A stretch of 64,000 bases of DNA from Sphingopyxis sp. MWB1 (GTDB lineage Bacteria; Pseudomonadota; Alphaproteobacteria; Sphingomonadales; Sphingomonadaceae): positions 124,001-188,000 of the forward strand of contig NZ_JQFJ01000001.1 in assembly GCF_000763945.1 (NCBI RefSeq), read 5' to 3'. The notes beneath the pieces are model-generated. The model ran no database searches, was not told where the DNA came from, and saw nothing but the letters and a program-made list of their open reading frames with translations. The translations under genes were made by a program, and so were the position numbers. Shown in pieces: positions 428-21,634 of the stretch (positions within the stretch are counted from its first letter, which is position 1; every line of letters starts with the position of its first letter).

Positions 428-2155
428 CTATCCCGCGATCACGTCCGACAGCGGGACGTGGCGCCACAGCCTGCCTATCTCATCATCTTGCCCCGTCAGA
501 TCATAGCGAAGCAGCGAAACGGGCAGGCGGCCCGTGTTCATCAGATAATCGTGAAAATCCTTCAGTGAGAAATTTTCGCCCAGCTGGCGTTTGCGATCGA
601 CCAGCAGTTTTTGAAGCTGCATCGCGCCAATCGTGTAGGTCATGCCATATCCTGGCGGACGGCGGATATAGATGCCCGCATCGACTCGCGCGACATTGTC
701 ATCCAGATAGGGCGTCCAGCCTTTCCAGAAGCGCATCGTCTCCTCGACCCCCATCTCATTGCGCTGCATCTTCACATCGCCAATGGTGCGCGCCGCACGG
801 AAAATGCCGAAGATATAGATTAGCTCGCGTGTGCGGGGCCGGTCGTCGAACAGGCCGAGTTGCAGCGCGGTCTCTTCCAGGTAGAAGCCCCAGCCTTCGG
901 TGCGGCCGCTGTCGCTGATATGACGGCGAATGGGATGGGCGACGCGCGCGCGGGTCATGCCGTCGAAACGGTGTCCCGGAAAAGTCGCGTGTAAATGGTC
1001 GGGCGAGGCGTCGCGAAACTGCACCTGTTCCCAGAACATAGGCCCTTCGGGGCGCACGATCCACGGCGCATTATATCCCACTTCCTGATAGGTTTCGGGA
1101 ATATAATTGGGGATGGTGATAATCTCTTCATCGCGCAGCCATTTGCGGATTTTGGCGTCGGTTGCGGCAAGCTGCGCCTCATATTCCTCCGCCGATGTGG
1201 GCAGCGGCAGTTCAGGCAGCTTGCGGTTGCGGTGCCGCTCGGTCGTATAATTGGCCCAGTGCCGCTCCAGCTCGCGCTCGGCCAAGGTGACGATCTGGTC
1301 GGAATCATAGGGCATCAGGCGAACCTGCCGCAAAAACCAGTCATAGGCGGGCTTGCCGACCCCGGCATCATCGGTCATCGCCGGGCGCGCCGCCGCCAGC
1401 CAATCGCGAAAGCCTGCAATCGCCGCTTCGGCCGCAACAATATCGCCGACCAGTTCGGGCTGTTGCACTTCCGCGCGCCCGCGCAGATCGGCGAACCAGC
1501 CGACCAGCCCCGCAGGCTCGACCGCGCGATAGGGCATGCCATGCCCCACCCCGTCGCCGTTCGACAGGCTGTGCAGCGCCAGATCGGCATAATCGGCGGC
1601 GACAGCATCCAGATTGACCCGCGCCTGCGTCAGATAGGCTGGAATGGCGCGCAGCTGGGCGCGTAGCTCCGCCAGCGCATCCCCCTCCAGCGGCAGCTCC
1701 TTATAGGCCAGCCGCTGCAGCTCATCGACATATAGGCCGGGGTCGCGCGCCCAGGGTTTTGTGACATTCAGTGTGAAGTCCATCAGGTCCATCTGCGCGC
1801 GCACCGCCAGATAATCGACCTGCTGATGCCGGTCCCACCGCGCGACGGCGAAGCGAGGCAATTCCGCCTGAAAGCGGCGCAGCCGTTCGCGGCGTTCGTC
1901 GACGGTCGCAGGACTGTAATCGGCCATCACCCCCGCGCCGGCCTTTTTCCGCCACGCTTCATATTGCTCAAATAGGGCGGTGAAGGTCTTATAATCCGCT
2001 CTTCCGTCCGGCGGGGCGCCGGTGGCGGCAATGGGCGTACCGTGATCCGCTGTGCCGCTGGATGAGCCTGATGACGCCGTCACCGCTGCCGCCGGAGTCA
2101 TGGCGATGGCACCTAACATTAATGCCGCAACGGAGTTCATCGCTATTTTCTTCAT
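428..2155 (-). CDS. DUF885 family secreted protein with altered metal motif
   Basis: A 575-residue protein of the DUF885 (PF05960) family, whose members carry a metallopeptidase-like HExxPGH motif and a second EGWxxYxE motif. The start ATG at 2155 is preceded by GGGGGAGGA and gives a clear signal peptide (MKKIAMNSVAALMLGAIAMT, then an AAA cleavage region), so the product is probably periplasmic. At residues 388-394 the motif reads HATFPGH: the expected Glu after the first His is missing, while EGWGFYLEE at about 419-427 is kept. The paralogue at 7759-9432 has its motifs at the same residue numbers with the Glu present. It points away from the TonB-dependent receptor gene. Peptidase activity is doubtful; a binding or accessory role is possible. 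Confidence 0.8.
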   Translation of the reverse strand: MKKIAMNSVAALMLGAIAMTPAAAVTASSGSSSGTADHGTPIAATGAPPDGRADYKTFTALFEQYEAWRKKAGAGVMADYSPATVDERRERLRRFQAELPRFAVARWDRHQQVDYLAVRAQMDLMDFTLNVTKPWARDPGLYVDELQRLAYKELPLEGDALAELRAQLRAIPAYLTQARVNLDAVAADYADLALHSLSNGDGVGHGMPYRAVEPAGLVGWFADLRGRAEVQQPELVGDIVAAEAAIAGFRDWLAAARPAMTDDAGVGKPAYDWFLRQVRLMPYDSDQIVTLAERELERHWANYTTERHRNRKLPELPLPTSAEEYEAQLAATDAKIRKWLRDEEIITIPNYIPETYQEVGYNAPWIVRPEGPMFWEQVQFRDASPDHLHATFPGHRFDGMTRARVAHPIRRHISDSGRTEGWGFYLEETALQLGLFDDRPRTRELIYIFGIFRAARTIGDVKMQRNEMGVEETMRFWKGWTPYLDDNVARVDAGIYIRRPPGYGMTYTIGAMQLQKLLVDRKRQLGENFSLKDFHDYLMNTGRLPVSLLRYDLTGQDDEIGRLWRHVPLSDVIAG

Positions 2156-2610
2156 CCTGATCCTCCCCCACCTTTCTTTGCATGCGTGGACCGTTACAAT
2201 CGAAAGGAATATAATCATAAACATGTGAATATGGTCATGATGATGGTGCTTCCTCTATCGGTCAAGCGCAATATGGCGGATCGCAAGGGTCAGGAAGGAG
2301 GGTAGCGCCCGAATCGGCCCGGGGGCAATCAGGAGCATCTTATGGTAGGAAATTACGCAGATCGCTGTCTGAAATATTATAATCTCTTAACAGAATTTCA
2401 CTTCATGATTGCGAAATGATTTTCGCCTTGCGGTCCGGCTTGGCAGTGGGCAGGGCAGAATAAATGACAATTTTCACATTTTTTCATGACAGCTCATTGA
2501 CGGGCATTCCAGATTATGATCAAAATCACGCAACTGTTCACGCATATGGTGGCTGAGGGAGTCGCCAAGCGTGCCTGTTGCCAAAATATTCCAGGTGGGG
2601 AGTCAGCAAG
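2156..2610. other. divergent intergenic region, DUF885 gene / TonB receptor
   Basis: A 455-base gene-free stretch between two divergent genes, clearly AT-richer than its surroundings around 2340-2540. It holds the ribosome binding sites of both genes and the 19-base element at 2222-2240. No open reading frame with a start, ribosome binding site and coding-like composition is seen. Promoters for both directions should lie here, but no convincing -35/-10 pair was recognised. Confidence 0.6.
2222..2240. promoter_or_regulatory. shared 19-base element (copy 1), candidate MarR-type operator
   Basis: Reads CATGTGAATATGGTCATGA. A copy with 17 of 19 identical bases lies at 20211-20229, upstream of the M24 peptidase gene. 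The left part is a dyad (CATGT-GA-ATATG, one mismatch from perfect). It lies 67-85 bases upstream of the DUF885 start at 2155. Two MarR regulators are encoded in the same cluster. The regulator that binds is inferred only. Confidence 0.45.
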
Positions 2611-5445
2611 ATGAATATCAAGCGGGTCGCAACATTTCGAAATGGCCTAAAGGGTGGATCAGCATTTTTTCTGTCGATGGCGGCAATGGGCACGGCGGCA
2701 GCGCAGGATGTCGCACCCGCTGAGGAGGCCGGTGCCATCGTCGTGACGGGCTCGCGCATCCCGCGCCCCGATGTGGAATCGAACAGCCCCGTCAATGTGG
2801 TGGGCGAGGAAGAAATAAAGCTCGCCGCCACCAATGAAACCGAACAGCTTTTGAACGCGCTGCCTCAGGCCGTGTCGGGCTCGGGGGCGCAGTCGAACAC
2901 CGGCAATGGCTCGGCGACGGTCAATCTGCGCGGCCTTGGCACCGTGCGCACGCTGGTGCTGCAAAATGGCCGCCGCATCGTCGGCGCCTCGCAGGATGGC
3001 GTGGTCGATCTCAACATGATCCCGCCCTCGCTCGTCGCGCGCGTCGAAGTCGTCACCGGCGGCGCGTCGGCGGTTTACGGCTCGGACGCGATGGCCGGCG
3101 TCGTCAACTTCGTGATGAAGGATGATTTCGAAGGCCTCGAAGTCGGCGGCTCCTACGGCATCAGCGACGAAGGCGATGCCGAGCGTTACAATCTTGAACT
3201 TACCGCGGGCGGCAATTTCGCCGATGGCCGCGGCAACCTCGTCTTCCACGGCAGCTATTATGACCGCGCGCAGGTGAAGGGCGCCGCGCGCGATCACGCC
3301 ACCGTCTATCTCAATGACGCGATCGTCGACGGCAAGCCGGTGCTCGTCCCCTCGGGCAATGGCGTCACGCCGCAGGGCACGATCTTCGGCCCCGGCCTTG
3401 TCGGCCTGACCGATCCCAATGGCGACACCATCGGCACGGCGGGCATTTTCTTCGCGCCCGAGGGCTGGCGCGCCTATCGCCCCAGCGACGGCTTCAACGA
3501 CCGTCCCTACACCAATTTGCAAATGCCGATGCAGCGCTGGTCGGGCTCGCTTCTGGGTCATTATGATGTGACCGACAATGTCCGCGCCTTCTGGGAAGGC
3601 TCCTATGTGCACAGCAAGATTAATTCGACGCTGGGCGCGGTACCGATGAGCAGCTCGGGCTTCATCCCCGGCTTCCAGCTCGACATTCGCAATCCCTATC
3701 TCGACCCAACGCTGCGCGATTTCCTCAGCAGCAATCTCGACAGCGACGGCGATTCGATGGTGCCGGTCAACATCAACCGCCGCCTGCTCGATGGCGGGTC
3801 ACGTACCAGCGACCAGACGCGCGATTTCTGGCGCTTCGTCGTCGGTTTGAAGGGCGATCTTACCGACCGGCTGAACTGGGAAGTCTTCTACAATCAAGGC
3901 CAGACCAAGGTCACGGACGTCCAGGGCGGCGGCGTTCTCATTGATAATTTCGCCAATGGCTTTGTCACCAATCCCTCCGATCCGTATAAATGCGCCGCCG
4001 CCGATCCCAAATGCGTGGTGCTCAATCCCTTCGGGCTGAACTCGCTCACGCCCGAAATGATCGACTATATCTATACCGATCTCACCAACATCACGACGAT
4101 CAAGCAAAAGCAGGTCGGGGCCAGCGTAACCGGCTCGCTCTTCACCCTGCCGGCGGGCGATGTCGGCATTTCGCTTGGCGCGGAATATCGCAAGGAAAGC
4201 TCGGCCTTCGATCCCGATCAGCTTTATGTGATGGGCAAGGCGCTGTCGCGTTCGGCGGGGCTCAGCCCGACGGCGGGTTCCTTCGACGTGTCGGAACTTT
4301 ACGGCGAAATCTATGTGCCGCTGCTCGCCGACATGCCGGGCGTGGAAATGCTCGCTTTCGAAGGGGGCGCGCGCTTCTCCGACTATTCGACCGCCGGTTC
4401 GGTCTGGTCGTACAAGCTCGGCGGTGAATATTCGCCCTTCCGCGGCCTGAAATTCCGCGGCCTGTACCAGCGCGCGGTGCGTGCGCCCAATGTGGTCGAG
4501 CTTTATTCGGGCGCGACCAATACGGCACCCGATGCCGTCGATTTCTGTAACGCCGGGCCCGATCGCACGGCTGCGGAGCGCGACTTCTGCGTCAATTCGC
4601 TCGGCATTCCGGCCGCGGTGATCGACGTCTTCCAGCAGGAAAATCGCCAGATCCGCGCGATCACCGGCGGCAATCCCGATCTTCAGGAGGAAACCTCGGA
4701 CACTTGGTCGGTCGGCGCGGTGCTGCGCCCCGAATTCCTGCCCGGTTTCCAGCTCACGGTCGATTATTATAATATCAAGATCGAGGATGCGATCGGCTCG
4801 TTCGGCGGCGGCCTTCAGTCGGTGATCACCGCCTGCAACGCCGATATGTCGCTCGACAATATCTTCTGCCAGCCGTTGCGCAAGCGCACGCCCGACGGCC
4901 AGCTTTACGACGTGCCGCTGCTCAACGCCAATATCGCCAAGATGGAAGCGTCGGGCATCGACTATCGCATCGACTATCGCCATGATCTCGGCGGCAGCAG
5001 CCTCGGCTATTATCTCGCCGGCACCTATTTGATCGACGCGATTTCGCAGGGCAGCCCGATCGTCAATCCGGTGAATTGCGCGGGCTATATCGGCGGCGGC
5101 AGCTGCTCGACCGCCAATCCCAAATGGCGCTTCACCCAGCGTCTGACCTGGGACATGGAAACACTCCAACTCTCGCTGCGGCATCGCTTCATCGGTTCAG
5201 CGAAGGATGGCCGCATCGCGGGCGCCAAGGCTTCGGGGGCGCCGATTCCCTTGCTCGCCGTCCCCGAAACCGGCGACGTCCATTATTTCGACCTCAGCGC
5301 GAATCTGGACGTAACCGACAACAGCAGCATCTATGCCTCGGTCGACAATCTCTTCGACCGCGACCCGCCCTTCTATCTGTACGAGCGGGAAACCTATGAC
5401 GCGATCGGCCGCCGTTTCACCATCGGCTTCCGCGCACATTTCTAA
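2611..5445 (+). CDS. TonB-dependent receptor
   Basis: A 944-residue outer-membrane transporter. The start ATG at 2611 follows the ribosome binding site GGTGGGGAG and gives a signal peptide ending near AAAQ. The mature start carries a TonB-box-like segment (GAIVVTGSRIPRPD), followed by a plug domain with VNLRGLGTVRTLVLQNGRR and VEVVTGGASAVYGSDAMAGV, then a long 22-strand-type barrel with NPDLQEETSDTWSVG and a C-terminus ending in aromatic Phe (GFRAHF), as needed for barrel insertion. The plug form without an N-terminal signalling domain resembles the sphingomonad receptors often paired with peptidases. The neighbours (S9 peptidase, DUF885 proteins) suggest that it imports peptides or amino-acid derivatives; the substrate is not visible in sequence. 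Confidence 0.93.
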   Translation: MNIKRVATFRNGLKGGSAFFLSMAAMGTAAAQDVAPAEEAGAIVVTGSRIPRPDVESNSPVNVVGEEEIKLAATNETEQLLNALPQAVSGSGAQSNTGNGSATVNLRGLGTVRTLVLQNGRRIVGASQDGVVDLNMIPPSLVARVEVVTGGASAVYGSDAMAGVVNFVMKDDFEGLEVGGSYGISDEGDAERYNLELTAGGNFADGRGNLVFHGSYYDRAQVKGAARDHATVYLNDAIVDGKPVLVPSGNGVTPQGTIFGPGLVGLTDPNGDTIGTAGIFFAPEGWRAYRPSDGFNDRPYTNLQMPMQRWSGSLLGHYDVTDNVRAFWEGSYVHSKINSTLGAVPMSSSGFIPGFQLDIRNPYLDPTLRDFLSSNLDSDGDSMVPVNINRRLLDGGSRTSDQTRDFWRFVVGLKGDLTDRLNWEVFYNQGQTKVTDVQGGGVLIDNFANGFVTNPSDPYKCAAADPKCVVLNPFGLNSLTPEMIDYIYTDLTNITTIKQKQVGASVTGSLFTLPAGDVGISLGAEYRKESSAFDPDQLYVMGKALSRSAGLSPTAGSFDVSELYGEIYVPLLADMPGVEMLAFEGGARFSDYSTAGSVWSYKLGGEYSPFRGLKFRGLYQRAVRAPNVVELYSGATNTAPDAVDFCNAGPDRTAAERDFCVNSLGIPAAVIDVFQQENRQIRAITGGNPDLQEETSDTWSVGAVLRPEFLPGFQLTVDYYNIKIEDAIGSFGGGLQSVITACNADMSLDNIFCQPLRKRTPDGQLYDVPLLNANIAKMEASGIDYRIDYRHDLGGSSLGYYLAGTYLIDAISQGSPIVNPVNCAGYIGGGSCSTANPKWRFTQRLTWDMETLQLSLRHRFIGSAKDGRIAGAKASGAPIPLLAVPETGDVHYFDLSANLDVTDNSSIYASVDNLFDRDPPFYLYERETYDAIGRRFTIGFRAHF

Positions 5446-5491: not shown

Positions 5492-5525
5492 GGCCCTTTA
5501 AAATATGATGTAATGGGTGAGAAAT

Positions 5526-7757
5526 ATGCTGAATTTTCGTGGGATTGGGGTTGCGGTTTTGGGGGCGGCCTTATTATCGACCGCCGCGCTGGCGCAGGAT
5601 CGACCCTGGCCGCATGCGCCGGTCCATGGCGGGGCCGAAACGGCGGGCACCTCGCTCTCGATTGATCAGCTTTATCGCTATAAAAGCCTGATCGGCACCT
5701 CTCCCGAGGCTTATAGCTGGGCGCCCGGCGGCGACCGTTTCCTCTTTCTGTGGAATGATGCGGGCTATAGTTTCCGCGACATCTGGTCCTATTCGGTCCG
5801 CACCGGCAAGAAAGAACGGCTGACCTTCCTCGGACAGGATAGCAAGCCGGAGGCAGAGGAAAAGGGCATCGCCCAGGCGATCTTCCTCGGTGGCGACCGC
5901 GTCGCCTTCACGCTTGGCGGTCAATTGCACATCCGCGAGGCCGACGGCACGATCAACAAGGTGGAAAGTGACAAGCGCGCGGTGCGCAAACTCACGCTCT
6001 CGCCCGATGGCAAGCATCTCGCCTTCGTTTCCGGCCATCCGGTCGACAGCCGCAACCGCGTGACGCTGGGCGGCGACCTCTGGGTCCGCGATGTGGCGGC
6101 CAAGGGGGCCGGCAGCACGCGGCGCATCGTCGGCTATGACGATCCCAAAATCTATGTGAACAGCTTTCAATGGTCGGACGACGGCAGCGCCATCGCCTTT
6201 GAACAGGCCGATGACCGCGCCATGCCCGAACGCGATATTTTCTATTATACGCGCGACGGGCTTCAGAATAACCGCGTGATCCGCGCCTTTCCCGGCGATG
6301 AAACGACAAAGGCGACGGTGGGCAAGGTCGATCTCGCCTCGGGCGACATCCGCTATTTCGACCGGCCCGATGCCAAGCATCATGTCTGGGACTATGGCCT
6401 GTCAAGCGATGGCGAGCGGCTCTTCATCAGCGGTTCCGACATGGAGGCGAAGGAGCATCGCATCTATGTCTATGACACGGCGACCGGCGCGCGCGAAACC
6501 TTCTATCAGCTTCGCGAGCCCAAGCATTTGCGCCCCGACTGGAAAGTCGCCTGGGCGCCCGGCGATGACGGGCTGATCATCCTCACCGACCGCGATGGCT
6601 GGCTGCATCTTTATCATCAGCGGGCGGCAGGCGAAGTCCCGCGTGCGATCACCAGCGGCCAATGGGAAATTGCCTCTTTCGACGTCGATAAAAAAGGGCG
6701 GCAGATTTATTTCACCGCCAATAAATCGCATCTCGCCGACCGCCAGATTTACCGCGTGCCCGTTGCGGGTGGCGCGGTGGAACGGGTGAGCGCGCCCGCC
6801 GCAGGCACGCATGAGCCCGTCTATTCACCCGATTTTCGGCATATCGCCGATTGGTATAGCAATGACGACATGCCGCCCGAGCTTTTCCTTGTCGATACGG
6901 GCAAGCCGGGGCAGGCCAAACAGCTCACCAAATCGCCCCAGCCCGATTTCTACAAACAGACGTGGGCGAATATCGGCTATGTCGAATTTCCGAGCCATGT
7001 CGATGGCACCAATCTGGTTGCGCGGCTCAGCCTTCCCGCCAATTATGATCCGGCGAAACGCTATCCGGTCATCGTCGGATCGGTCTATTCGGACGCGGTT
7101 CGCAACCAATGGGGCGGGCGCCGCGCGCATCCGACCTGGGGCCTCGACCAATATTTTGTCGGGCAGGGCTATATTGTCCTGAACGTCAACATCCGCGGCT
7201 CATGGGGGCAGGGACGCGAGCATAATCAAAGCCAGTATCACAGCTATGGCGAAACCGACATCAACGACCTGGAAAGCGGCGTCCGTTTCCTGATCGACAA
7301 GGGCTATGCCGATCCGAAACGCATCGGCATCTGGGGGTCGAGCTATGGCGGGCTGATGACGATCATGTCACTTTCCAAAAAGCCCGGCCTCTATGCTGCG
7401 GGCATTGCCGGGGCGCCCGCTACCAATGTCTGGCACGCCTATCCGGGGCAGATGTGGATCATGGGTCCGCCCGAAGGTGCCGACATGCCCGCGCGCTATG
7501 AAGCGCAATCGGCACTTTATCAGGCGCATGGCATCAAGGATCCGCTGATGATCATCCATGGCACGCGCGATCCGGTGGTGCTTTATTCGGATACGCTGGC
7601 GCTCGTCGATCATATGATCGAGCGCGAACAGATGTTCGAACTGGTCACCATCCCCGGCGGCAATCATGCCTGGGCCAGTGACACGCTGCCGCAGGCGCGC
7701 TTCGCCTTCAAGAAAATGGTCGATTACTTTAATCGCAATGTCAGGGATCGGAAATAA
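5526..7757 (+). CDS. S9 family prolyl-oligopeptidase-type serine peptidase
   Basis: A 743-residue secreted peptidase. The start is ATG at 5526 (GGTGAG just upstream); a GTG three codons earlier is an alternative. A signal peptide (LGAALLSTAALAQ) is followed by a beta-propeller half (residues about 40-480, with repeated SPDGKHLAFVS-type blades) and an alpha/beta hydrolase domain. The catalytic triad is visible as Ser606 in GSSYGG, Asp682 in GTRDPVV and His714 in GGNHAW. This is the DPP IV / acylaminoacyl peptidase architecture, which cleaves short peptides, often after Pro or Ala. It ends one base before the start of the next DUF885 gene, so the two are translated from one message. Probably periplasmic. 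Confidence 0.92.
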   Translation: MLNFRGIGVAVLGAALLSTAALAQDRPWPHAPVHGGAETAGTSLSIDQLYRYKSLIGTSPEAYSWAPGGDRFLFLWNDAGYSFRDIWSYSVRTGKKERLTFLGQDSKPEAEEKGIAQAIFLGGDRVAFTLGGQLHIREADGTINKVESDKRAVRKLTLSPDGKHLAFVSGHPVDSRNRVTLGGDLWVRDVAAKGAGSTRRIVGYDDPKIYVNSFQWSDDGSAIAFEQADDRAMPERDIFYYTRDGLQNNRVIRAFPGDETTKATVGKVDLASGDIRYFDRPDAKHHVWDYGLSSDGERLFISGSDMEAKEHRIYVYDTATGARETFYQLREPKHLRPDWKVAWAPGDDGLIILTDRDGWLHLYHQRAAGEVPRAITSGQWEIASFDVDKKGRQIYFTANKSHLADRQIYRVPVAGGAVERVSAPAAGTHEPVYSPDFRHIADWYSNDDMPPELFLVDTGKPGQAKQLTKSPQPDFYKQTWANIGYVEFPSHVDGTNLVARLSLPANYDPAKRYPVIVGSVYSDAVRNQWGGRRAHPTWGLDQYFVGQGYIVLNVNIRGSWGQGREHNQSQYHSYGETDINDLESGVRFLIDKGYADPKRIGIWGSSYGGLMTIMSLSKKPGLYAAGIAGAPATNVWHAYPGQMWIMGPPEGADMPARYEAQSALYQAHGIKDPLMIIHGTRDPVVLYSDTLALVDHMIEREQMFELVTIPGGNHAWASDTLPQARFAFKKMVDYFNRNVRDRK

Positions 7758-7758
7758 G

Positions 7759-9432
7759 ATGCTGCGTTCCTTGGCTTCTCTTGTGATGGGCGGTGCCGGT
7801 CTGCTCGCGGCGCAAGGCGCGGCGGCAGAGGAAGCGGTGCAACAGCTTGGCGCCGAATTTTGGGAATGGCGCGCCGCGACGCAGCCCGCGACCAGCGACG
7901 ATATTCCCCGCATCCTGCGCCCCGATGGCTGGACGCCCGACTGGACGCCCAAGGCTGTTGGGGCGCAGAAACAGCGACTTGCAGCCTTTGAGGCGCGGTG
8001 GAAAGCGCTCGCGGGGCGTCCTCGCAGCGTCAGCGAGTCGGTCGATTACCGTCTTGTGGGCTCGGCGCTCGCCCGGGTGCGCTGGGAAATGGACCATGTC
8101 GCTGCGTGGCAGCGCCAGCCCCATTTCTATGTCGCCCAGACGCTCAACCCGATTTTCGAAGTGCTGCTCCCGCCGCCCCCCGTCGAAAGTGCGCGGATCG
8201 ACGATGTCATCCGCCACCTCAACAATGCGCCCGCCATTCTCGCGGCAGGCCGCGCCAATCTCACCGACATGCGCGGTCCTTTCGTCAAGGCGGCGCTCCA
8301 CCAGATTGGAGCGGTTCCTGTCAGCGTAAACGGCATGATCGAAGGGTTGAAACCCTATGCGAGCGCGCGGCAGCGGAAACTTCTGGCCGTCGCTGGAACC
8401 CGGGCTTTGGCGGCCTTCGCGGATTTTGAGACTCATCTCCAATCACGTTCCGTGGCACTTTCGCAAACAACCGCGGTCGGGCGGGAGAGTTATATTTTCT
8501 TTCTGCGTAACGTCGCGCTTTATCCCTATTCGCCCGAGGAATTGCTGGTCATGGGCCGCCAGGAATGGGCGCGGTCGGTGCTGTTCGAGGAGCTGGAGCG
8601 GAACCGGAATGCCGGGGTTCCCGAACTGCCGATTGCTGCCTCGATCGAGGATGTCATCGCTAAACTCGACGCCGACGAGCGCAAGGTGCGCCAGTTTCTG
8701 CGCGACAAGAAGCTGCTCACCATCCCCGACTGGGCTGGCCATTATAAAGCCCAGCCTTTTCCCGCCTATCTGGCGCCGATCGGCTGGCTGGGGCGGACGT
8801 TCGACCTCACCGACCGCGCGCGCGTCGGGCAGGATGCGACCGTTTATCTTCCCGAACCCTCGCCCTCGCTCGGCTATTTCAACCTGTCGATCACGCGCGA
8901 CCCGCGTCCAATCATCGTCCATGAAGGGGTGCCGGGCCATTATTTCCAGCTTGCGCTGGGGTGGAAGCACCCCAATCCCCTGCGCCGCCATTATTATGAC
9001 AGCGGCGCCAATGAAGGCACCGGCTTCTATGCCGAGGAAATGATGCTGCAGGCCGGGCTGTGGGCCGACGACCCCAAATCGCGCGAGATCATCTATAATT
9101 TCGCGCGCGCGCGCGCCTTGCGGGTCGAGGTCGATGTAAAGCTCGCCCTTGGCGAATTCAGCATCGACGAAGCCGCCGATTATCTCGAGGCCATGGTGCC
9201 GATGGACCGCGCGACCGCCGAAGAGGAAGCCGTCTTCTTCGCCGCCGCCCCGGGACAGGCGATCAGTTATCAGATCGGCAAGATGCAGACGGCGGAATTT
9301 CTGGCCGAAGCGCGCGTGCGCGAAGGCGCGAAATTCAACCTGCAGCGCTTCCACGATTATCTCTGGCAAAATGGCAATGTGCCCATTGCGCTCCAGAAGG
9401 AAGAATATCTCGCCACGGTTGCGGGCCAGTAG
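7759..9432 (+). CDS. DUF885 family secreted metallopeptidase-like protein
   Basis: A 557-residue protein of the DUF885 family. The ATG at 7759 comes one base after the stop of the S9 peptidase gene. A signal peptide is visible (LASLVMGGAGLLAAQGAAA). The metal-site motif HEGVPGH lies at residues 388-394 and EGTGFYAEE at about 419-427, the same numbers as in the paralogue at 428-2155, but here the Glu is present. The segment RRHYYDSGANEGTGFYAEE also aligns with the RRHISDSGRTEGWGFYLEE of that paralogue, so the two arose by duplication. A zinc-dependent peptidase role in the periplasm, working on products of the S9 enzyme, is plausible but unproven for the family. Confidence 0.85.
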   Translation: MLRSLASLVMGGAGLLAAQGAAAEEAVQQLGAEFWEWRAATQPATSDDIPRILRPDGWTPDWTPKAVGAQKQRLAAFEARWKALAGRPRSVSESVDYRLVGSALARVRWEMDHVAAWQRQPHFYVAQTLNPIFEVLLPPPPVESARIDDVIRHLNNAPAILAAGRANLTDMRGPFVKAALHQIGAVPVSVNGMIEGLKPYASARQRKLLAVAGTRALAAFADFETHLQSRSVALSQTTAVGRESYIFFLRNVALYPYSPEELLVMGRQEWARSVLFEELERNRNAGVPELPIAASIEDVIAKLDADERKVRQFLRDKKLLTIPDWAGHYKAQPFPAYLAPIGWLGRTFDLTDRARVGQDATVYLPEPSPSLGYFNLSITRDPRPIIVHEGVPGHYFQLALGWKHPNPLRRHYYDSGANEGTGFYAEEMMLQAGLWADDPKSREIIYNFARARALRVEVDVKLALGEFSIDEAADYLEAMVPMDRATAEEEAVFFAAAPGQAISYQIGKMQTAEFLAEARVREGAKFNLQRFHDYLWQNGNVPIALQKEEYLATVAGQ

Positions 9433-12748: not shown

Positions 12749-12825
12749 GAACGCCGCTTTAGACCATGCGGCGCGCGTTGCAATGCACGCCGTATCCACA
12801 GGGTCCTTGCCGGGGGGAGTTGATC

Positions 12826-14613
12826 ATGCCGCATACAGGAGCTTATCTATCGCGCTGCCTTTGCCTCGCGGCGATCACCGCGCTGGCTCTGCCCGGCGCG
12901 CTGCCGATCACGGCGGCAATGGCCGCCCCGGCAAGCGCCGTGGAGCCTCTAAGCCCGGCAGACGGGCTGGCGGCGATCATCGCCGATTATGAGCGTTTTT
13001 CCGCTGACTATCCGATGGAAGCGGGCCGCTCCGACCCCGCCTTTGCGCGCGACCGCTGGCCCGATGAAAGCCCGCCCGCCATGGCAAGGCGCCGCGCCGC
13101 GCTGGACGCATTTGCCGCGCGGCTCGATGCGCTTGATCCTGCGGGCCTGACGGCGGAGGCGCGGATCAACCGCGATTATCTGCGCGCGCTGATCGGGTGG
13201 CGGATCGAGGGGATCGACCTTGACGAGCGCCGCTTTGCCTTTGTCGCGCATGAAGGTTTTTACAACACACCCTATGCCGTGGCGCGGAGCCTGAGGATCG
13301 AGAGCGCGAGCGAGGCGCGCGCCTGGGTCGAGCGCATGGGCGGCATCACGGCCTATTTCGCGCAGCAGCGCGCCAATCTGGAACGCGGCATCGCCACCGG
13401 CTGGACGCACCCCGATGTCGTGATCGACGTCGCCGTCGCGGTGCTCGACAAGCAGATCGCCCGCGCCCCCGCGGACGATCCGATGGTCGAACCGCTCGCC
13501 CCCTATCCCGCAGAGGCCGCCCGGGCCGCCGCGCTGATCGAGCGCGAGATCCGGCCCGTGCAGCGCGCCCTGCGCGCCTATATCGACGGGTCTTATCGCG
13601 CCCATGCGCGCGACGCGCTGGGCATAGCGGCGGTTCCCGGCGGACGCGCCTATTATGATTTTCTGCTGCGCTATTACACCACCACCGACTTGTCGGCGGA
13701 GGAAATCCACCGCATGGGCCTGTCCGAAGTTGCGCGCATCCGCGCCGAGATGGACAAGGTGATCGCCTCCACCGGATTTGACGGCAGTTTTGCCGACTGG
13801 CTCCATTTTCTGCGGAGCGATCCGCGCTTTTACGCGACAAGCCGCGAAGGACTGATCGAAAAATATGCCGCCGCGACAAAGCGCATCGACGGTGTGTTGC
13901 CCCGCTATTTTTCGGTGCTGCCGCGCCAGCCCTTCACCATCATTCCCGTCCCGCGCGAGCTGGAGGAAGGCTATACGACGGCACGCGGCGGCGGGGGCGG
14001 CGATTTCGCCAAGGGCTTTGCCGGAACCTTCGTCGTCAACACCTCGCATCTCGACCAGCGGCCGCTGTATGAAGTGCCCGCGCTCAGCCTGCATGAAGCC
14101 GCGCCGGGGCATCATACCCATGCGGCGCTCAATCGCGAGAATGGGCAGCTTCCCTCCTTCCGCCGCGCAGGCGACCTGCTCGCCTTTCGCGAAGGCTGGG
14201 CGCTTTATGCCGAACGGCTGGGGCATGAAATGGGCGTGTACCGCGATGCCTTTGAAAAATTCGGCAGTCTTTCGACCGAAATGTGGCGCGCCTGCCGCAT
14301 GGTGGTCGATACCGGTATTCATGTCATGGGGTGGAGCTATGACCGGGCGCGGCGCTGTTTTTCCGACAATACGGCGCTTGCCGACGTCAATATCGACACC
14401 GAACTCGCCCGCTATATCGGCGCGCCGGGCGGGGCGGTCGCCTATAAGGTCGGCGAGCTCAAAATCGTCGAAATGCGCCGGCGGGCCGAAGCCGCGCTGG
14501 GCGATGGCTTTGACATCCGCGCCTTTCACGACCTGATATTGGCGCAGGGCCAATTGCCGATGACCTTGCTGGAACAGAAAATCGACCGCTGGATCGCCGC
14601 CGGCGGACGATAG
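12826..14613 (+). CDS. DUF885 family secreted metallopeptidase-like protein
   Basis: A 595-residue protein, the third DUF885 member of the cluster. The ATG at 12826 follows a GGGGGGAG ribosome binding site and gives a signal peptide (CLAAITALALPGALPITAAM). The metal motif HEAAPGH begins at residue 423 and the second motif EGWALYAERL at 456, both in canonical form, so this is the most typical family member of the three. It is more distant from the other two, which share the DSGxxEGxGFYxEE layout. It is divergent from the MarR gene at 12278-12748. A periplasmic peptidase role is inferred from the family motifs. Confidence 0.86.
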   Translation: MPHTGAYLSRCLCLAAITALALPGALPITAAMAAPASAVEPLSPADGLAAIIADYERFSADYPMEAGRSDPAFARDRWPDESPPAMARRRAALDAFAARLDALDPAGLTAEARINRDYLRALIGWRIEGIDLDERRFAFVAHEGFYNTPYAVARSLRIESASEARAWVERMGGITAYFAQQRANLERGIATGWTHPDVVIDVAVAVLDKQIARAPADDPMVEPLAPYPAEAARAAALIEREIRPVQRALRAYIDGSYRAHARDALGIAAVPGGRAYYDFLLRYYTTTDLSAEEIHRMGLSEVARIRAEMDKVIASTGFDGSFADWLHFLRSDPRFYATSREGLIEKYAAATKRIDGVLPRYFSVLPRQPFTIIPVPRELEEGYTTARGGGGGDFAKGFAGTFVVNTSHLDQRPLYEVPALSLHEAAPGHHTHAALNRENGQLPSFRRAGDLLAFREGWALYAERLGHEMGVYRDAFEKFGSLSTEMWRACRMVVDTGIHVMGWSYDRARRCFSDNTALADVNIDTELARYIGAPGGAVAYKVGELKIVEMRRRAEAALGDGFDIRAFHDLILAQGQLPMTLLEQKIDRWIAAGGR

Positions 14614-14657: not shown

Positions 14658-16097
14658 TCAGGACGCGAGCGCCAGCTCCAGCGTCTTGCCATCCTCATCT
14701 TCCAGCGCGGTTTCGCGCAGGCGGCGCAAGGTGGCGGCGTCACCGCCCCCGGTGCGATAGCGTTCGACGATGCGGCTATAGTTGCGCAGGCCGCGCTCGA
14801 ATGTGTCGCCATATCCCTTGATAAGCCGCTGGCATTTAACCAGTTCCAGCGCGGTGTCGGCGGGTGCCGAACGGATGAGCGACAGCCAGTCCTCAATGCG
14901 TTGCTGCTCCAGGCTGTAACGCAGCGTCCCGCGGCGCCAGCGCCGCCATCCGGCGAGGAGCGACAGGGTCAGATACCAGCGCAGGCTGGTCGTTTCGACA
15001 TGGCGTCCCTTGGCAAAAAGCGGCTTCAGGCGGCGCGCCAATGACTTGCTCGCCAGAATGCGGCGGCCCAGCGCGGCGGGCAGCGTTTCGCAAATCTCCT
15101 CGAGCCGGGGGTGCATATATTCGGTGAGCTGGACGATCTGGTCCTCGCGCGCCTTCACCTCGTCGCGCACCCGGGCAAAGCGGCTGGCGCGCAGTTTCAG
15201 CGCCGCGACGCGGATCGTATCCTCATAGCTCATCCACAGCGCAAGGTGGCGCGCCGCTTCGGTCATCAAGGTCGCATCGCCCTTCAGCGTGTCGAGCCGG
15301 TCAAGATAGAGGGCGGCATAATCGGCGTCCTGATAGTCGATCAGGCGGCGCACGCCTTCGATGGCAAAGCGATGCGCCGGGGCAGGAAGCGTCGCCTCGA
15401 TCCGGGCGAGCAAGGCGCGTCCCGCCGCGGTGGTGGGGGCAGGGACCGGCGACGGCGTTTCTGATGCCGCGGGTTCGGGCGTCCCGGTGGCGGCGTCGAA
15501 GCCCGAGGTAAAGCCGCGCAAATTGGCGTCCACCGCCTTGCCCCCGCCCCGGATCGCCGCTTCAAAGGCTTCGCGGGGGAAGGGGAGCGCGCCGCTTCCC
15601 GCCAGCGCGCCAAAGAGAATCGAGCTGATGACGCTTCCCGCGCGTTCGGCGGCAGCTTCCATGTCAAAGGCGATGAAGCGGCGCGCGCGTTCGGCGGCGG
15701 CGCTCAGGATGCGCTCGCCGCTCGCGCGCCCGTCGCCCATCGCCGATTTTTCGTCAATCGCATAGACGCGGTGGGTCGATCCGATCAGCAGACTGTCCTT
15801 CGACACAAAACCGCGCAGGATCGCGCGGCCCGCTTCCATCAATTCGGATGCCAGCACCACGTCGACATTGCCGGGAACGGGCATGAGCGCGAGCACCGGC
15901 GGCTTTGCGGCGCCTTTCGGAAACAGCTCGACATAATAGACGGTGGCGCCGGTGCGCTGGGCGACGCCGGGGACCGAGGTGGCTTGCGCAATATAGCCAT
16001 TGGCGGCGCCAAGCTGGACGATCCAGTCGGCGAGCACACCGCCGCCCTGACCGCCGAGGCCCAGGATGGCGATGCTGATGCGTTCTGTTCCGTTCAT
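14658..16097 (-). CDS. iorB: indolepyruvate ferredoxin oxidoreductase, beta subunit, long form
   Basis: A 479-residue protein. Residues about 8-190 form the gamma/beta-type domain of 2-oxoacid ferredoxin oxidoreductases (ILGLGGQGGGVLADWIVQLG, then SVPGVAQRTGATVYYVE). The remaining roughly 280 residues are a helical extension like the DUF6537 part found in long oxidoreductases, making it more than twice the length of archaeal IorB. The ATG at 16097 shares its A with the TGA of iorA (TGATG), showing tight coupling. With IorA it decarboxylates aryl-pyruvates (indole-, phenyl-, hydroxyphenylpyruvate) to aryl-acetyl-CoA using ferredoxin as acceptor. It is the last gene of a cyclase-iorA-iorB operon. 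Confidence 0.88.
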   Translation of the reverse strand: MNGTERISIAILGLGGQGGGVLADWIVQLGAANGYIAQATSVPGVAQRTGATVYYVELFPKGAAKPPVLALMPVPGNVDVVLASELMEAGRAILRGFVSKDSLLIGSTHRVYAIDEKSAMGDGRASGERILSAAAERARRFIAFDMEAAAERAGSVISSILFGALAGSGALPFPREAFEAAIRGGGKAVDANLRGFTSGFDAATGTPEPAASETPSPVPAPTTAAGRALLARIEATLPAPAHRFAIEGVRRLIDYQDADYAALYLDRLDTLKGDATLMTEAARHLALWMSYEDTIRVAALKLRASRFARVRDEVKAREDQIVQLTEYMHPRLEEICETLPAALGRRILASKSLARRLKPLFAKGRHVETTSLRWYLTLSLLAGWRRWRRGTLRYSLEQQRIEDWLSLIRSAPADTALELVKCQRLIKGYGDTFERGLRNYSRIVERYRTGGGDAATLRRLRETALEDEDGKTLELALAS

Positions 16098-18220
16098 CAA
16101 TAACCTCGTGCGGCAAGCTTGCGGTCGGCGCGGCGCTGCAGCGCGCCGATCACCCAGGATCGCAACCGGTGGCGCAGCCGGTCGCGGGAGTCGGGGTTGC
16201 TGATGACCCGCGCCTTGTAGAAGGACGGGCAGAGGATCGCCGCATGGCTGACCTCTCCGCACACGCCGCAGCCGACGCAGCTGTTCTCGACATGGGCGAC
16301 CGGGTCCTGACGCAAGGGATCGGGATTGTCGCGGATCGTCAGCGAAGGACAGCCGGACAGGCGGATACAGCTATGATCGCCGGTGCAGGTGTCGGGATCG
16401 ACGCCAAAGCGTTCGCGCACCACGCGCTTGCCGGCCTTCATCGCCCTGGCAATCTGCGGCTTGATCCGCCGTTGCCGGTTGAGCTGGCATTCGGACTGGG
16501 CGACGATCACCTTTGGCCCTTTTTCCGGCGCGGTCAGCGCCTCGCGAATGGCATCGCGCATTCCGGCCACATCATAGGTGCGCGTCATCGTGCGCGCCCA
16601 GCCGATGCCGATGCCGCGCACGGCGCGTTCGATCGGATTATTCGTCTTGCGATGCGGGGGGCGGGCGCGCGAGGAGGGGATATCCTGTCCCCCGGTCGCG
16701 GCCGAATAGCCATTGTCGACGATAATCGTCAGATTATCATCCTTGTTGAACACCGCATTGCCGATGCCCGACGTCAGCCCATTGTGCCAGAAACCGCCGT
16801 CGCCCATGATCGCGACCGCGCGTTTTCCTTCGGGCTTGAATGCCGAAGCGCCCGCGGTGCCCAGCCCATAGCCCATCGTCGTATTGCCGATGTGAAAGGG
16901 CGGCAGGATGGAGAAGAGATGACAGCCAATATCGGCGGAGACATGAAGCTCACCGACTTCGCGCTGCACCAGCTTCATCGCCGAAAAAATGGGGCGTTCG
17001 GGGCAGCCGGTGCAAAAGCCCGCCGGACGCTGGGGAATGGCGGCGGGGGAGATGGCGGGCAGGGCGGGCGCCTCTTCGGCGGGTGCGCGGTCCGGCGCAT
17101 GAGCGCGCAGGAATTTGGCGACACCATCCTTGATCACCCCCGCGGTATATTCGCCCGCGCGCGGCAGCACATCCTTGCCGATGATGCGCGTATCAAGGTC
17201 GGCGCGGCGGATGAGCGTGTTGAGCTCATGCTCGATAAATTCGGGCTGGCCTTCCTCAACCACCAGAACCGCGCGCTTGCCCGCACAGAAATCGCGCACC
17301 TCGTCGGGGATCAGCGGATAGGTGACGTTCATGACATAGATGGGCAGCGCGGCATCGCCGAAAGCGTCGGAAAGGCCAAGGAGTTCGAGCGCCCGGTTGA
17401 GCGAATTGAACAGCCCGCCCTGAACGATGATGCCAATCTCGTCCTGCTCGGTGCCGAAATATTCGTTGAGCCGCTGCTCGCGAACAAAGTCGATCCCCGC
17501 CGGCCAGCGCTTTTCGATCTTTTCGACTTCGTGCAGGAAATTGGCGGGGGGCAGGACGATGCGGCTGGTGTCGCGCGTTGGGCTGGCGGCGGCCTGGGCC
17601 ACTGTCATCGGCGGGCGGCGATTGTCGCGCGCGGTGAAGCTGCCCGTTACATGGCAGGCGCGCACGCGCAGTTCGAGCATGACGGGGGTGTTCGATGCCT
17701 CCGACAGTTCAAAACCTTTTTCGACCATGTCGACGATCAGCGGCAGGCTGGGGCGCGGGTCGAGCAGCCACATTTGCGATTTCATGGCAAAGGCATGGGT
17801 GCGCTCCTGCATGATCGAGGAGCCTTCGCCATAATCCTCGCCCAATATGATCAGCGCGCCGCCCGTCACACCACCCGACGCGACGTTCGACAGCGCGTCA
17901 GAGGCGACATTGGTGCCGACCACCGACTTCCACGCGACCGCGCCGCGCAGCGGATAGTTGACCGACGCCGCCAGCATCGCCGCCGCCGTCGCTTCGCTCG
18001 CCGAGCTTTCGAAATGAACGCCAAGTTCGGCCATCATCTCGCTCGCATCGGAAAAGACATCCATCAGATGGCTGATCGGTGAGCCTTGATAACCGCCGAC
18101 ATAGGCAACCCCCGACTGAAGCAGCGCCTTGGTCACGGCGAGAATGCCCTCGCCGTGAAAAAGCTCGCCTTCGCCGGCTTTCAACCGCTCGACTTCGGCC
18201 TTGAACGAACGTTCCGCCAT
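16097..18220 (-). CDS. iorA: indolepyruvate ferredoxin oxidoreductase, alpha subunit
   Basis: A 707-residue thiamine-diphosphate enzyme subunit. The N-terminal pyrimidine-binding domain shows VAYVGGYQGSPISHLMDVF; the middle has CTGCPERP, the TPP/Mg motif GDGGFWHNGL and the DNGYSAATGGQD stretch. The C-terminal ferredoxin-like part carries Cys612, 618 and 624, then Cys648, 651, 654 and 664, so two iron-sulfur clusters are possible; the first has unusual spacing. It acts in the cytoplasm on aryl-pyruvates derived from Trp, Phe or Tyr. It follows the cyclase gene by 19 bases and overlaps iorB by one base. In this cluster it may finish the breakdown of aromatic amino acids released from peptides. 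Confidence 0.92.
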   Translation of the reverse strand: MAERSFKAEVERLKAGEGELFHGEGILAVTKALLQSGVAYVGGYQGSPISHLMDVFSDASEMMAELGVHFESSASEATAAAMLAASVNYPLRGAVAWKSVVGTNVASDALSNVASGGVTGGALIILGEDYGEGSSIMQERTHAFAMKSQMWLLDPRPSLPLIVDMVEKGFELSEASNTPVMLELRVRACHVTGSFTARDNRRPPMTVAQAAASPTRDTSRIVLPPANFLHEVEKIEKRWPAGIDFVREQRLNEYFGTEQDEIGIIVQGGLFNSLNRALELLGLSDAFGDAALPIYVMNVTYPLIPDEVRDFCAGKRAVLVVEEGQPEFIEHELNTLIRRADLDTRIIGKDVLPRAGEYTAGVIKDGVAKFLRAHAPDRAPAEEAPALPAISPAAIPQRPAGFCTGCPERPIFSAMKLVQREVGELHVSADIGCHLFSILPPFHIGNTTMGYGLGTAGASAFKPEGKRAVAIMGDGGFWHNGLTSGIGNAVFNKDDNLTIIVDNGYSAATGGQDIPSSRARPPHRKTNNPIERAVRGIGIGWARTMTRTYDVAGMRDAIREALTAPEKGPKVIVAQSECQLNRQRRIKPQIARAMKAGKRVVRERFGVDPDTCTGDHSCIRLSGCPSLTIRDNPDPLRQDPVAHVENSCVGCGVCGEVSHAAILCPSFYKARVISNPDSRDRLRHRLRSWVIGALQRRADRKLAARGY

Positions 18221-19019: not shown

Positions 19020-19059
19020 CATTCCTCTCCCTTGATCCATGGAGAGGCTGCCGCAAAAA

Positions 19060-19229: not shown

Positions 19230-19751
19230 CTATTCGATGGGCAATTTGCTGAGATTAGCGCTGATTTTCTGCAGGGTACGGAGCAGATGCGCGATGTCGC
19301 GATTGCTGATGCCGTCCATGGCGCGCGAGAATTGCCGGCCGACAATAGGCGTGAGCTTGCGAAGCGTCTGCTGGCCCGCAGGTGTCAGCGTAACCTCGGT
19401 AACCCGATTATCTTCCGCATTGGGCTCCGTCGTCACCAGTCCCTGTTCGAGCATACGGTCGATAATCCGGCTGATAGTCGATCTTTTGGTCAAGGCGGCC
19501 TCGGCAATCGTGCCGATGCTTGCCGGCTGGCGTTCCCGCAATACCGTCATGACGCGATAGATAGGTTTTGATACGCCATGCTTATGGAGAACCTTGTCCA
19601 TATCTTCATGATATTTGAAATCAGCATGTGCCATTTGATAAAAGGGTGAATCTTCGAGACGAAAACTCGGGCTGCTCGGATCATAATCGCCGCGACTTTC
19701 CATCTGTTCCTCCGCTTTTTTCGATGATTTCTTCATTGGCCCTATGCTCAT
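19230..19751 (-). CDS. MarR family transcriptional regulator
   Basis: A 173-residue regulator with a charged N-terminal extension (MKKSSKKAEEQMESRGDYD) before the winged-helix domain. The recognition region IGTIAEAALTKRSTISRIID and the wing DNRVTEVTLTPAGQQTL are typical of MarR proteins. The ATG at 19751 follows GAGGAAAAC; the frame stays open upstream to 20159 but that part has no coding character. It lies upstream of, and on the same strand as, the cyclase-iorA-iorB operon, and palindromes precede both transcription units. A small aromatic acid or oxo acid as ligand would fit the family; this is inference. Confidence 0.88.
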   Translation of the reverse strand: MSIGPMKKSSKKAEEQMESRGDYDPSSPSFRLEDSPFYQMAHADFKYHEDMDKVLHKHGVSKPIYRVMTVLRERQPASIGTIAEAALTKRSTISRIIDRMLEQGLVTTEPNAEDNRVTEVTLTPAGQQTLRKLTPIVGRQFSRAMDGISNRDIAHLLRTLQKISANLSKLPIE

Positions 19752-19828
19752 GTTTTCCTCAATTATATCATTCAGGCAAGCCGCGCGTGAGAGGGCGGGG
19801 CTGATTTGCCCCCGAACTAGCCGAAAAC

Positions 19829-20016: not shown

Positions 20017-20035
20017 CCCCGGATCACGTCCGGGG
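20017..20035. repeat. short palindromic repeat core
   Basis: CCCCGGATCACGTCCGGGG, a near-perfect palindrome. Its core (CCCGGATCA-C-GTCCGGG) differs by one base from the core of the repeats at 32956-32996 and 60360-60400, so it belongs to the same dispersed REP-like family. Confidence 0.6.
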
Positions 20036-20210
20036 CGAGGATGGCCCTGCGACGATAGCGGAGGCAGCCAACTGCACGAATAAGAGAGCGGATCGGCTCA
20101 TGCCGCGGACTGCCGAGCGCTGCCAGCGGGCGGGCGAGGAGGCTGAAAAATTCCTGCAAAGGCGCCGAAACGAGGCGGCCATATCATCCTGACTAGTATT
20201 TGACGTAAAT

Positions 20211-20229
20211 CATATGAATATGGTCATTA
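20211..20229. promoter_or_regulatory. shared 19-base element (copy 2), candidate MarR-type operator
   Basis: Reads CATATGAATATGGTCATTA, 17 of 19 identical to the element at 2222-2240. It contains a perfect dyad CATAT-GA-ATATG (20211-20222) and lies 41-59 bases upstream of the chosen start of the M24 gene, a position where a repressor would block transcription. Confidence 0.5.
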
Positions 20230-20269
20230 AAGATTCGGTCAGCAAAGATTGATGAAGGGAGCAAAGGCG

Positions 20270-21634
20270 ATGGGGGAAGTGGGCGTTGCGATGAACCGGA
20301 AATATGCGATTCGGCGCCGCTGGATCATGGGCGCGCTGGGGCTGGCGATGGCCGCCGCGGGCTTCGTCGCGAGCCAGGCGAAAGCGGGCGAAGCGCGGCA
20401 GCGGTGGGAGCAGCTTTGCCAGATAAGGCAGGACAAGCTCGACCTGATCCTGCCCGATGCGATGCGGGAAAATGAGATCGACATGTGGATCGTCGCGGGA
20501 CGCGAGGGGCATGACGACCCCAATGCCGCGATGCTGGGCGGCGGATATATTGGCGATGTCGGCTTTTATATTTTTCACGATTCGGGCGCCGGCCGCATCG
20601 AGCGCATCGCGCTGGGTATTGGCGGCGCGGCCTTTCACCAATGTCCGCTTTATGATGTGACCGGCAGGGCGGAGCAATTGCGGGCTCTGGTGGAGGCGCG
20701 GAATCCGCGCCATATTGCGGTCAATATCGCGCAGCATATCGGCACGGCCGACGGGCTGAGCCATGGCCAATATGAGGCGCTGCGTGAGGCGCTTGGTCCC
20801 GACCTGTCGGCGCGGCTGGTGCCTGCGGAGAAGCTGGTTTCCGATTTTCGCTCGCGCCATAGCGCGACCGAAATTGCTGCCTTTGCCAAGGCGGGCGAAT
20901 ATGCGCGCCGGATCGCCGAGCGCGCGCTTTCGAGCGAGGTCATCGAGCCTGGCCGCACCACCATCGGCGAGGTTGCGTGGTGGATGATGGAAGAGCTGCA
21001 CCGCGAGGGGCTGGGCAACAGCTTTGGCCTTCCCAGCGTCTATATATTGGGGCCGGGCGAGAGGGGGCCGGTATCGGGCGATCATATCATTCAACGCGGC
21101 GATCTGATCACGCTCGATTGGGGCGTCAGCTATCTTCTGTCCTATACCGATATGAAGCGCATGGCCTATGTTCTGAAGCCGGGGGAGAATGCGCCTCCGC
21201 CGGGAGTTCAGCGGGCCTTTGATCAGGCGCGTGCGATCCGGGAGATGATCCGCGCGGTGATCCGGCCGGGGGTGCGGGCGGGGGATGCGCTTGCCGAGGT
21301 GAACGCGCGTGTTGCCGCCACACCGGGATTGGTGCTTGGCCGCTATGACGACCCTAGCGCGGACCCGCGCGTTTCGGACGTGGTGATCGGCAGCCACTCG
21401 GTTGGCGATTGGGGGCATGGATCGGGTCCCTCAATGGCCGATTTCAACCCGCTGCGCATGAGCTATGTCTTGCAGTCGACCAATTTCCTGTCAGTCGAAC
21501 TGTTCCTCTATACGCCGGTTGCGGAATGGGGCGGGCGGAAAATCAAGATTCCGCTGGAAGATAATGGCGTGGTGACGCCGCGCGGGCTGGAATGGGTCTA
21601 TCCCGCGAACAACCGGATATTGCTGGTGAAATAG
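20270..21634 (+). CDS. M24 family (Xaa-Pro peptidase-like) secreted protein
   Basis: A 454-residue protein of the creatinase/aminopeptidase P fold. The N-terminal domain (MRENEIDMWIVAGREGHDDP) and the C-terminal pita-bread domain (LGNSFGLPSVYILGPG, LITLDWGVSYLLSYTDMKRM, DWGHGSGPS) are visible. The pattern of metal ligands is not fully canonical: the Asp residues of DWG and TDM are present, but the usual HxxGHxxG and E…E segments are weak, so activity is uncertain. Start: ATG 20270 after GAAGGGAG; ATG 20252 and 20291 are alternatives. All give an N-terminal signal (WIMGALGLAMAAAGFVAS after RRR), so the protein is exported. It ends the peptide cluster and shares a promoter element with the first DUF885 gene. 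Confidence 0.8.
   Translation: MGEVGVAMNRKYAIRRRWIMGALGLAMAAAGFVASQAKAGEARQRWEQLCQIRQDKLDLILPDAMRENEIDMWIVAGREGHDDPNAAMLGGGYIGDVGFYIFHDSGAGRIERIALGIGGAAFHQCPLYDVTGRAEQLRALVEARNPRHIAVNIAQHIGTADGLSHGQYEALREALGPDLSARLVPAEKLVSDFRSRHSATEIAAFAKAGEYARRIAERALSSEVIEPGRTTIGEVAWWMMEELHREGLGNSFGLPSVYILGPGERGPVSGDHIIQRGDLITLDWGVSYLLSYTDMKRMAYVLKPGENAPPPGVQRAFDQARAIREMIRAVIRPGVRAGDALAEVNARVAATPGLVLGRYDDPSADPRVSDVVIGSHSVGDWGHGSGPSMADFNPLRMSYVLQSTNFLSVELFLYTPVAEWGGRKIKIPLEDNGVVTPRGLEWVYPANNRILLVK

Follow-up and report, generated by a model that had tools for sequence, protein, structure and literature searches.

We analysed a stretch of 64,000 nucleotides from Sphingopyxis sp. MWB1 (the window), in which positions 428..21634 form an island of genes coding for a TonB-dependent receptor, peptidases, DUF885 and DUF3830 proteins, a DAO-type FAD oxidase, a BASS-family carrier, two MarR regulators, and the two subunits of an IorAB oxidoreductase next to a protein annotated as a cyclase. 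With a probability of roughly 0.6, this island encodes the upper half of a route that breaks down an indole-derived amino acid supplied in the form of peptides. At the level of sequence this reading is based on the identities of the genes, their linkage, a shared promoter motif, the signature of an isatin hydrolase and the lack of any match to PaaA; the reactions, the steps leading to isatin and the substrate are what we infer from them. Domains were assigned by Pfam and NCBIfam profile matches, and the signal peptides of the island proteins were judged by eye.

In the proposed scheme, the TonB-dependent receptor would take in peptides, from which the exported S9, DUF885b, DUF885c and M24 hydrolases would free an unusual residue that the BASS carrier would bring into the cell. 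DUF3830, the DAO-type oxidase and an aminotransferase whose gene is on another contig (C2) would convert the side chain, presumably leaving isatin, which the isatin hydrolase would open to give the 2-oxo acid isatinate (2-aminophenylglyoxylate). IorAB-type enzymes decarboxylate 2-oxo acids, such as those of the class of isatinate, to CoA esters, and here IorAB would turn isatinate into anthraniloyl-CoA by oxidative decarboxylation. Finally, an anthraniloyl-CoA monooxygenase/reductase (ACMR) and beta-oxidation-type enzymes, also encoded on the other contig, would complete the breakdown of the ring.

The isatin hydrolase and IorAB

The so-called cyclase (PF04199; 18240..19019, minus strand) is, judged by its scores and signature motifs, an isatin hydrolase. 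It scores 364-369 bits against the structurally solved isatin hydrolases A and 252 bits against isatin hydrolase B. Assignment as a kynurenine formamidase was rejected, with scores of 22-28 bits and GLQC in the place of I(L/I)E. According to the available part of the published description, isatin hydrolases are recognized by the metal motif HxG[T/A]HxDxPxH, by GLQC or GLAS, and by an aromatic WXW or FXW pocket (PMC6117287). The island protein carries all three signatures, as HTGTHFDAPVH, GLQC and WYW, in common with the enzymes of Labrenzia and Ralstonia, from which it differs in belonging to a conserved operon with IorAB. In the named DUF3830 loci, 17 of 17 cyclase homologues that align over more than 200 residues carry the metal motif and GLQC, a count that leaves out two homologues cut at the end of their locus (L160 and L162).

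The partner genes code for the IadA-like alpha subunit IorA (16097..18220, minus strand; TPP_enzyme_C, and TIGR03336 with 284 bits, below the cut-off of 651) and the IadB-like beta subunit IorB (14658..16100, minus strand; DUF6537/POR, NF006179 with 655 bits, cut-off 348). We examined 20 IorB loci chosen among the 30 best in the order, leaving out four that had already been analysed (G000, which is the window's own genome, G199, G214 and G349) and six others. As in the DUF3830 loci described below, genes were counted from tblastn matches at E<=1e-8. IorA was present in all 20 and the hydrolase in 18, while homologues of the S9 peptidase, the TonB receptor and DUF885 were each present in one. 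IorAB and the isatin hydrolase are consequently a module separable from the peptidase block, since they are also found without it. The earlier note on this sequence had taken everything for a single island; the block is real, but this module has an existence of its own. MarR1 (12278..12748 within the minus-strand open reading frame (ORF) 12278-12799; PF01047 with 35.1 bits, cut-off 24.6), the second of the two MarR regulators that the note had named, has a homologue in 9/20 of these loci and likely regulates the isatin-hydrolase module. MarR2 (19230..19754, minus strand; PF01047 with 43.8 bits) remains close to the DUF3830 core in several loci that lack IorAB.

The known system nearest to this module is the iad locus of Variovorax, Achromobacter and Bradyrhizobium, which, as far as its published descriptions were available, likewise has IorA/IorB (IadA/IadB), MarR control, a hydrolase annotated as kynurenine formamidase, and isatin and isatinic acid as intermediates. 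In the accessible part of one such account, iorA and iorB are treated as exclusive markers of iad loci, and the pathway is said to go through isatin and isatinic acid to anthranilate (PMC9613470). The island differs from iad in having no ring-hydroxylase (the IadDE oxygenase) and, with one distant query, no homologue of the AMP-ligase/CoA-ligase, which was found neither in the island nor in the ACMR cluster; thiolase was not searched for. It has instead the TonB receptor, the peptidases, the BASS carrier, DAO and DUF3830. The relationship to iad raises the alternative that the island degrades auxin conjugates: the peptidases would split amino acids from conjugated indole-3-acetic acid or from oxindole forms of it, and isatin would then be made by an iad-like route. 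In addition to the marker status of IorAB, AMP-ligase homologues in 6/20 IorB loci, a weak ring-hydroxylase match 6 kb from IorB in G262, and reports of fragmentary iad-like clusters from Sphingomonas and Sphingopyxis (PMC11630574, in the part available) count in its favour. We nevertheless hold it to be unlikely: the sole ring-hydroxylase alpha subunit (Ring_hydroxyl_A) found in the genome lies at C2:2048347, outside both clusters, the query mentioned found no ligase homologue in either, and DAO and the aminotransferase would be left without a role.

The lower pathway

A lower-pathway cluster is contiguous with the island in four relatives. In the Blastomonas-type genomes G343 and G203, the island is followed by genes for RidA, a small protein, acyl-CoA dehydrogenases, an enoyl-CoA hydratase (ECH), a short-chain dehydrogenase/reductase (SDR) and a fusion enzyme of the FAD/old yellow enzyme (OYE) type, which matches NF006101 with 1266 bits and is labelled anthraniloyl-CoA monooxygenase by JGI. 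In G349 and G214 (loci L105 and L106), the set forms one continuous stretch with M24, MarR2, an amidohydrolase and the ior operon. The window's own genome carries the lower-pathway set on contig C2 (monooxygenase at 848400), next to the aminotransferase and a further DUF885 gene, and its ACMR (G000:C2:848403) scores 1274 bits against NF006101, above the curated cut-off of 1078. By these profile matches, the lower pathway associated with the island is of the anthraniloyl-CoA type. The described 2-aminobenzoyl-CoA (anthraniloyl-CoA) monooxygenase/reductase pathway also combines an FAD monooxygenase-OYE fusion with acyl-CoA dehydrogenases, ECH and SDR; the difference is that here the one query found no CoA-ligase homologue in the clusters, and the CoA ester would come from IorAB.

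These results bear on the endpoint proposed in the earlier note, namely that IorAB converts peptide-derived aryl-pyruvates into arylacetyl-CoA. The family names of IorA and IorB agree with that endpoint, but their partner is an isatin hydrolase, the associated lower pathway is of the ACMR type, and PaaA (TIGR02156) has no match in the whole genome, which speaks against a phenylacetyl-CoA route. We therefore regard it as highly improbable. What is supported of the idea is a conserved island that combines the outer-membrane receptor, peptidases that look exported by eye, the amino-acid oxidase and IorAB and that has shared promoter motifs.

Shared promoter motifs

Comparison of the promoters of the TonB receptor and of the aminotransferase/monooxygenase yielded a 17-base motif, m2 (ATCACGCAAYTRTTCAC), located upstream of the receptor at 2525..2541 (plus strand). 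In the 3.1 Mb genome, allowing up to 2 mismatches, m2 occurs only in these two promoters, the second of them on contig C2, and its reversed control has zero sites; as the motif was chosen from the same promoters, this count tests its uniqueness and not its discovery. Among relatives, 19/22 TonB receptor orthologues of the named loci have m2 in the 300 bases before them (up to 3 mismatches; missed in L131, L132 and L136). The copy in front of the aminotransferase/monooxygenase genes matches exactly in L044, L045 and L105 and with 3 mismatches in L106. A second motif, m1 (CATRTGAATATGGTCAT), is common to the promoters of DUF885a (2222..2238, plus strand) and MarR2/M24 (20211..20227, plus strand), identical at both; there is one other, weaker site in the genome (2 mismatches), a count that, as with m2, tests the uniqueness of a pattern taken from these promoters, and conservation among relatives is patchy. 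No palindrome was seen in more than one promoter.

Recurrence of the island in relatives

A scan of genome contigs found 191 DUF3830 relatives, of which 80 were kept for locus analysis; the loci take in 10 kb on each side of DUF3830, and bigger islands are therefore cut. The closest 24 loci belong to Blastomonas, Sphingomonas, Sphingopyxis, Sphingosinicella and others, a few being metagenome bins named otherwise or to a higher rank. S9, BASS and DAO were each present in all 24, followed by DUF885b (22), DUF885a (21), DUF885c (20), IorA (15), IorB (15) and the cyclase (14). DAO was found in 76 of the 80 kept loci (80 of the 191), compared with none of the 20 IorB-anchored stretches, one of which shows a weak DAO match at E<=1e-5. 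DUF3830 itself is present in 17/396 genomes of the order; of the 18 sampled from the genus, only that of the window has it. The grouping is thus not due to chance, since the gene set and its order recur in relatives while DUF3830 is rare, and the packing described in the earlier note is that of a real block. The co-occurrence of DUF3830 with IorB, which the note had suggested looking for, was also found: IorB is present in 13/17 genomes with DUF3830 and in 47/379 of the others, by Fisher tests that ignore descent. Only matches above the family cut-off entered this comparison, and its ACMR counts therefore omit a weaker match in G086 and fragments in G095 and G101.

Two further counts, from 18 chosen distant genomes with DUF3830, have no baseline and were not used as evidence: IorA in 15/18 and an isatin-hydrolase-like protein (at least 48% identity) in 13/18. 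A plasmid origin was considered and rejected, DUF3830 occurring on 9 plasmid records, all with less than 60% identity. As a separate observation, a TPR protein with a C-terminal 2-oxoglutarate-Fe(II) oxygenase domain (L026:13642-15486), of which none was seen in the window's island, has homologues in 19/24 named relatives.

Other lineages

In three Komagataeibacter loci, DUF3830-DAO-aminotransferase-MarR is divergent from IorA-IorB-hydrolase-ACMR-SDR-RidA, with no match to the island peptidases or the island TonB receptor; in one of them (L157) a TonB receptor of a different kind lies farther away. On a Caballeronia plasmid, an amino-acid ABC transporter separates IorA-IorB-thioesterase-ACMR, MarR and the cyclase from a pyridoxal phosphate (PLP) enzyme, DUF3830 and DAO. 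The cyclase there has the isatin-hydrolase motifs and is 63% identical to that of the window, IorA 64%. On a Deinococcus plasmid, DUF3830 is accompanied by an FAD oxidase, a PLP enzyme and three Xaa-Pro peptidases; next to them lie a hydrolase that shares 50% identity with the window's and, where IorAB would be, a single-chain thiamine pyrophosphate (TPP) enzyme (L206:8553-10199). If the hydrolase makes a 2-oxo acid, such a swap of one TPP enzyme system for another is to be expected.

One might also explain the island as neighbours of unrelated function, a general peptide scavenging cluster beside a module for isatin detoxification, and the separation of the two in several genomes fits this. 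The rejoining of the modules in different gene orders in Komagataeibacter, Caballeronia and Deinococcus, together with the m2 motif common to the island and the ACMR locus, makes that explanation very unlikely.

Two side observations concern these lineages. On the Caballeronia plasmid, a cupin protein and a fumarylacetoacetate hydrolase (L207:5077-9528) follow the ACMR-like enzyme, which suggests ring cleavage of the gentisate type there and not by beta-oxidation. Near DUF3830 in two of the three distant genomes without IorA, both Burkholderia relatives, there is a Rieske oxygenase or a ferredoxin reductase; in one Paraburkholderia genome, which has no IorA match, the alpha subunit of a Rieske oxygenase (L181:11863-13134) comes after the DUF3830-DAO pair.

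Weighing the proposed pathway

Several observations weigh against a pathway from peptides through isatinate to anthraniloyl-CoA. NCBI mostly calls the monooxygenase a salicylyl-CoA 5-hydroxylase/oxidoreductase, and in the window's own genome, G065 and G199 the lower cluster lies apart from the island. The motif m2, counted in the promoters that supplied it, is absent from the aminotransferase/monooxygenase promoter of G199 (L107). Linkage is also incomplete: the DUF3830 core occurs without IorB in 4/17 genomes of the order, IorB is at most 30 kb from DUF3830 in 7 of the 13 that hold both, and 3/18 distant DUF3830 genomes have no IorA. The Deinococcus hydrolase has the metal motif with GLTS, not GLQC or GLAS. 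Variovorax iadC-K2, which by name excludes iadA and iadB, is reported to reach anthranilate in the available part of that study (PMC12633357). Finally, Rhizobia, where DUF3830 matches of several kinds were found in 35/151 genomes, combine DUF3830 and DAO with an amino-acid ABC transporter but have no isatin module next to them; since the DUF3830 core also occurs without that module, products other than isatin may arise from the upper module.

The substrate

In sphingomonads the core is accompanied by peptidases and the receptor; in Rhizobiales and Caballeronia its companion is an amino-acid ABC transporter. Because of these companions the common substrate is probably amino-acid-like. The S9 and M24 families often act at proline, and the nearest NCBIfam model to DAO is L-pipecolate oxidase; these two facts hint at a cyclic imino acid. 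Among the identified genes of the Komagataeibacter and Deinococcus sets, in which not every ORF was scanned, none was seen for an oxygenase that would act ahead of isatin, and the carbons of the indole may have been oxidised before entering the pathway. In view of these smallest gene sets, oxidised tryptophan, such as dioxindolylalanine or hydroxypyrroloindoline, is a candidate substrate. Dioxindolylalanine would yield isatin and pyruvate or alanine through deamination and retro-aldol cleavage.

The predicted structure of DUF3830 (9448..9927, plus strand; PF12903 with 142.1 bits, cut-off 26; no signal peptide seen), modelled with a pLDDT of 93, is closest, after DUF3830 itself, to the L-Trp Pictet-Spenglerases KslB and McbB (Foldseek, VIA-align). 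The two bacterial enzymes share this fold with the model, but DUF3830 has 159 amino acids and catabolic surroundings, and the match, with roughly 15% identity, extends over about half the length of a Pictet-Spenglerase. Residues H45, E52, E74 and D105 of DUF3830 are invariant. DAO (10969..12270, plus strand; PF01266 with 166.9 bits), apparently an FAD oxidase of amino or imino acids, scores 243.8 bits against the pipecolate oxidase model NF050086, under the cut-off of 600. By fold, glycine oxidase, L-proline dehydrogenase and sarcosine oxidase tie as its best rows, so that the substrate is not fixed by the fold. It is probably cytosolic; a secreted form was rejected, as the Tat-like stretch seen by eye upstream in the window is not conserved among relatives.

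The adjacency of the DUF3830 fold to KslB/McbB, the resemblance of DAO to imino-acid oxidases and the compact gene set of Komagataeibacter would also suit a different substrate, tetrahydro-beta-carboline-3-carboxylate, formed from Trp and an aldehyde and opened by a Pictet-Spenglerase-type DUF3830 and DAO. Compounds of this type are reported in many foods (PMC9335879, in the part available). Isatin would in that case require oxygenation of the ring, for which no enzyme was identified in the partly scanned Komagataeibacter and Deinococcus sets, and with a fold match of such limited extent and identity we find this substrate quite unlikely.

Returning to oxidised tryptophan, we put forward tentatively, as a possibility well short of an even chance, a dedicated and horizontally spread pathway that recycles oxidised or cyclised Trp from peptides, in which DUF3830, as a Pictet-Spenglerase relative, and the imino-acid oxidase would free isatin, and IorAB would be an isatinate:acceptor oxidoreductase making anthraniloyl-CoA without a ligase. 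Such a pathway would give bacteria a breakdown route for damaged tryptophan residues, DUF3830, so far uncharacterised, a testable role, and the IorAB class annotated as indolepyruvate oxidoreductase a function, and it could account for the fragmentary iad-like clusters reported in sphingomonads. A search of the literature on DUF3830, and on isatin with anthraniloyl-CoA/aminobenzoyl-CoA or indolepyruvate ferredoxin oxidoreductase, found no description of the route, nor was there one among the matches listed for oxindolylalanines with bacterial terms.

Receptor, carrier and hydrolases of the island

All the genes named in the earlier note are present between 428 and 21634. The TonB-dependent receptor (2611..5445; PF00593, PF07715), the BASS-family carrier (9939..10838; PF01758 with 87.8 bits), the S9 serine peptidase (5517..7757; PF00326/PF00930), which is DPP4-like and has bacterial DPP4 as its closest sequences of solved structure, and the M24 Xaa-Pro-like peptidase (20291..21634; PF00557 with 53.1 bits) are all encoded on the plus strand, and both peptidases appear exported by eye.

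The three DUF885 proteins, also exported by the same criterion, are DUF885a (428..2224, minus strand; Pfam 143.7 bits), whose start probably lies downstream of 2224, DUF885b (7759..9432, ORF 7666-9432, plus strand; 163.5 bits) and DUF885c (12826..14613, ORF 12766-14613, plus strand; 484.4 bits). The note had considered these multiple copies the most striking part of the island; the three copies are there, but they are less special in a genome with 8 DUF885 genes. The motif HE..PGH is kept by DUF885b (HEGVPGH) in 25/25 orthologues, and HExAPGH by DUF885c (HEAAPGH) in 21/21. In DUF885a (HATFPGH), Ala replaces the Glu of this zinc motif in 23/23 orthologues, and DUF885d, encoded elsewhere in the same genome (L104:7390-9288), reads HNLPGH, likewise without the Glu. 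Because of this loss in DUF885a and DUF885d, catalysis may have been lost or changed in one DUF885 branch.

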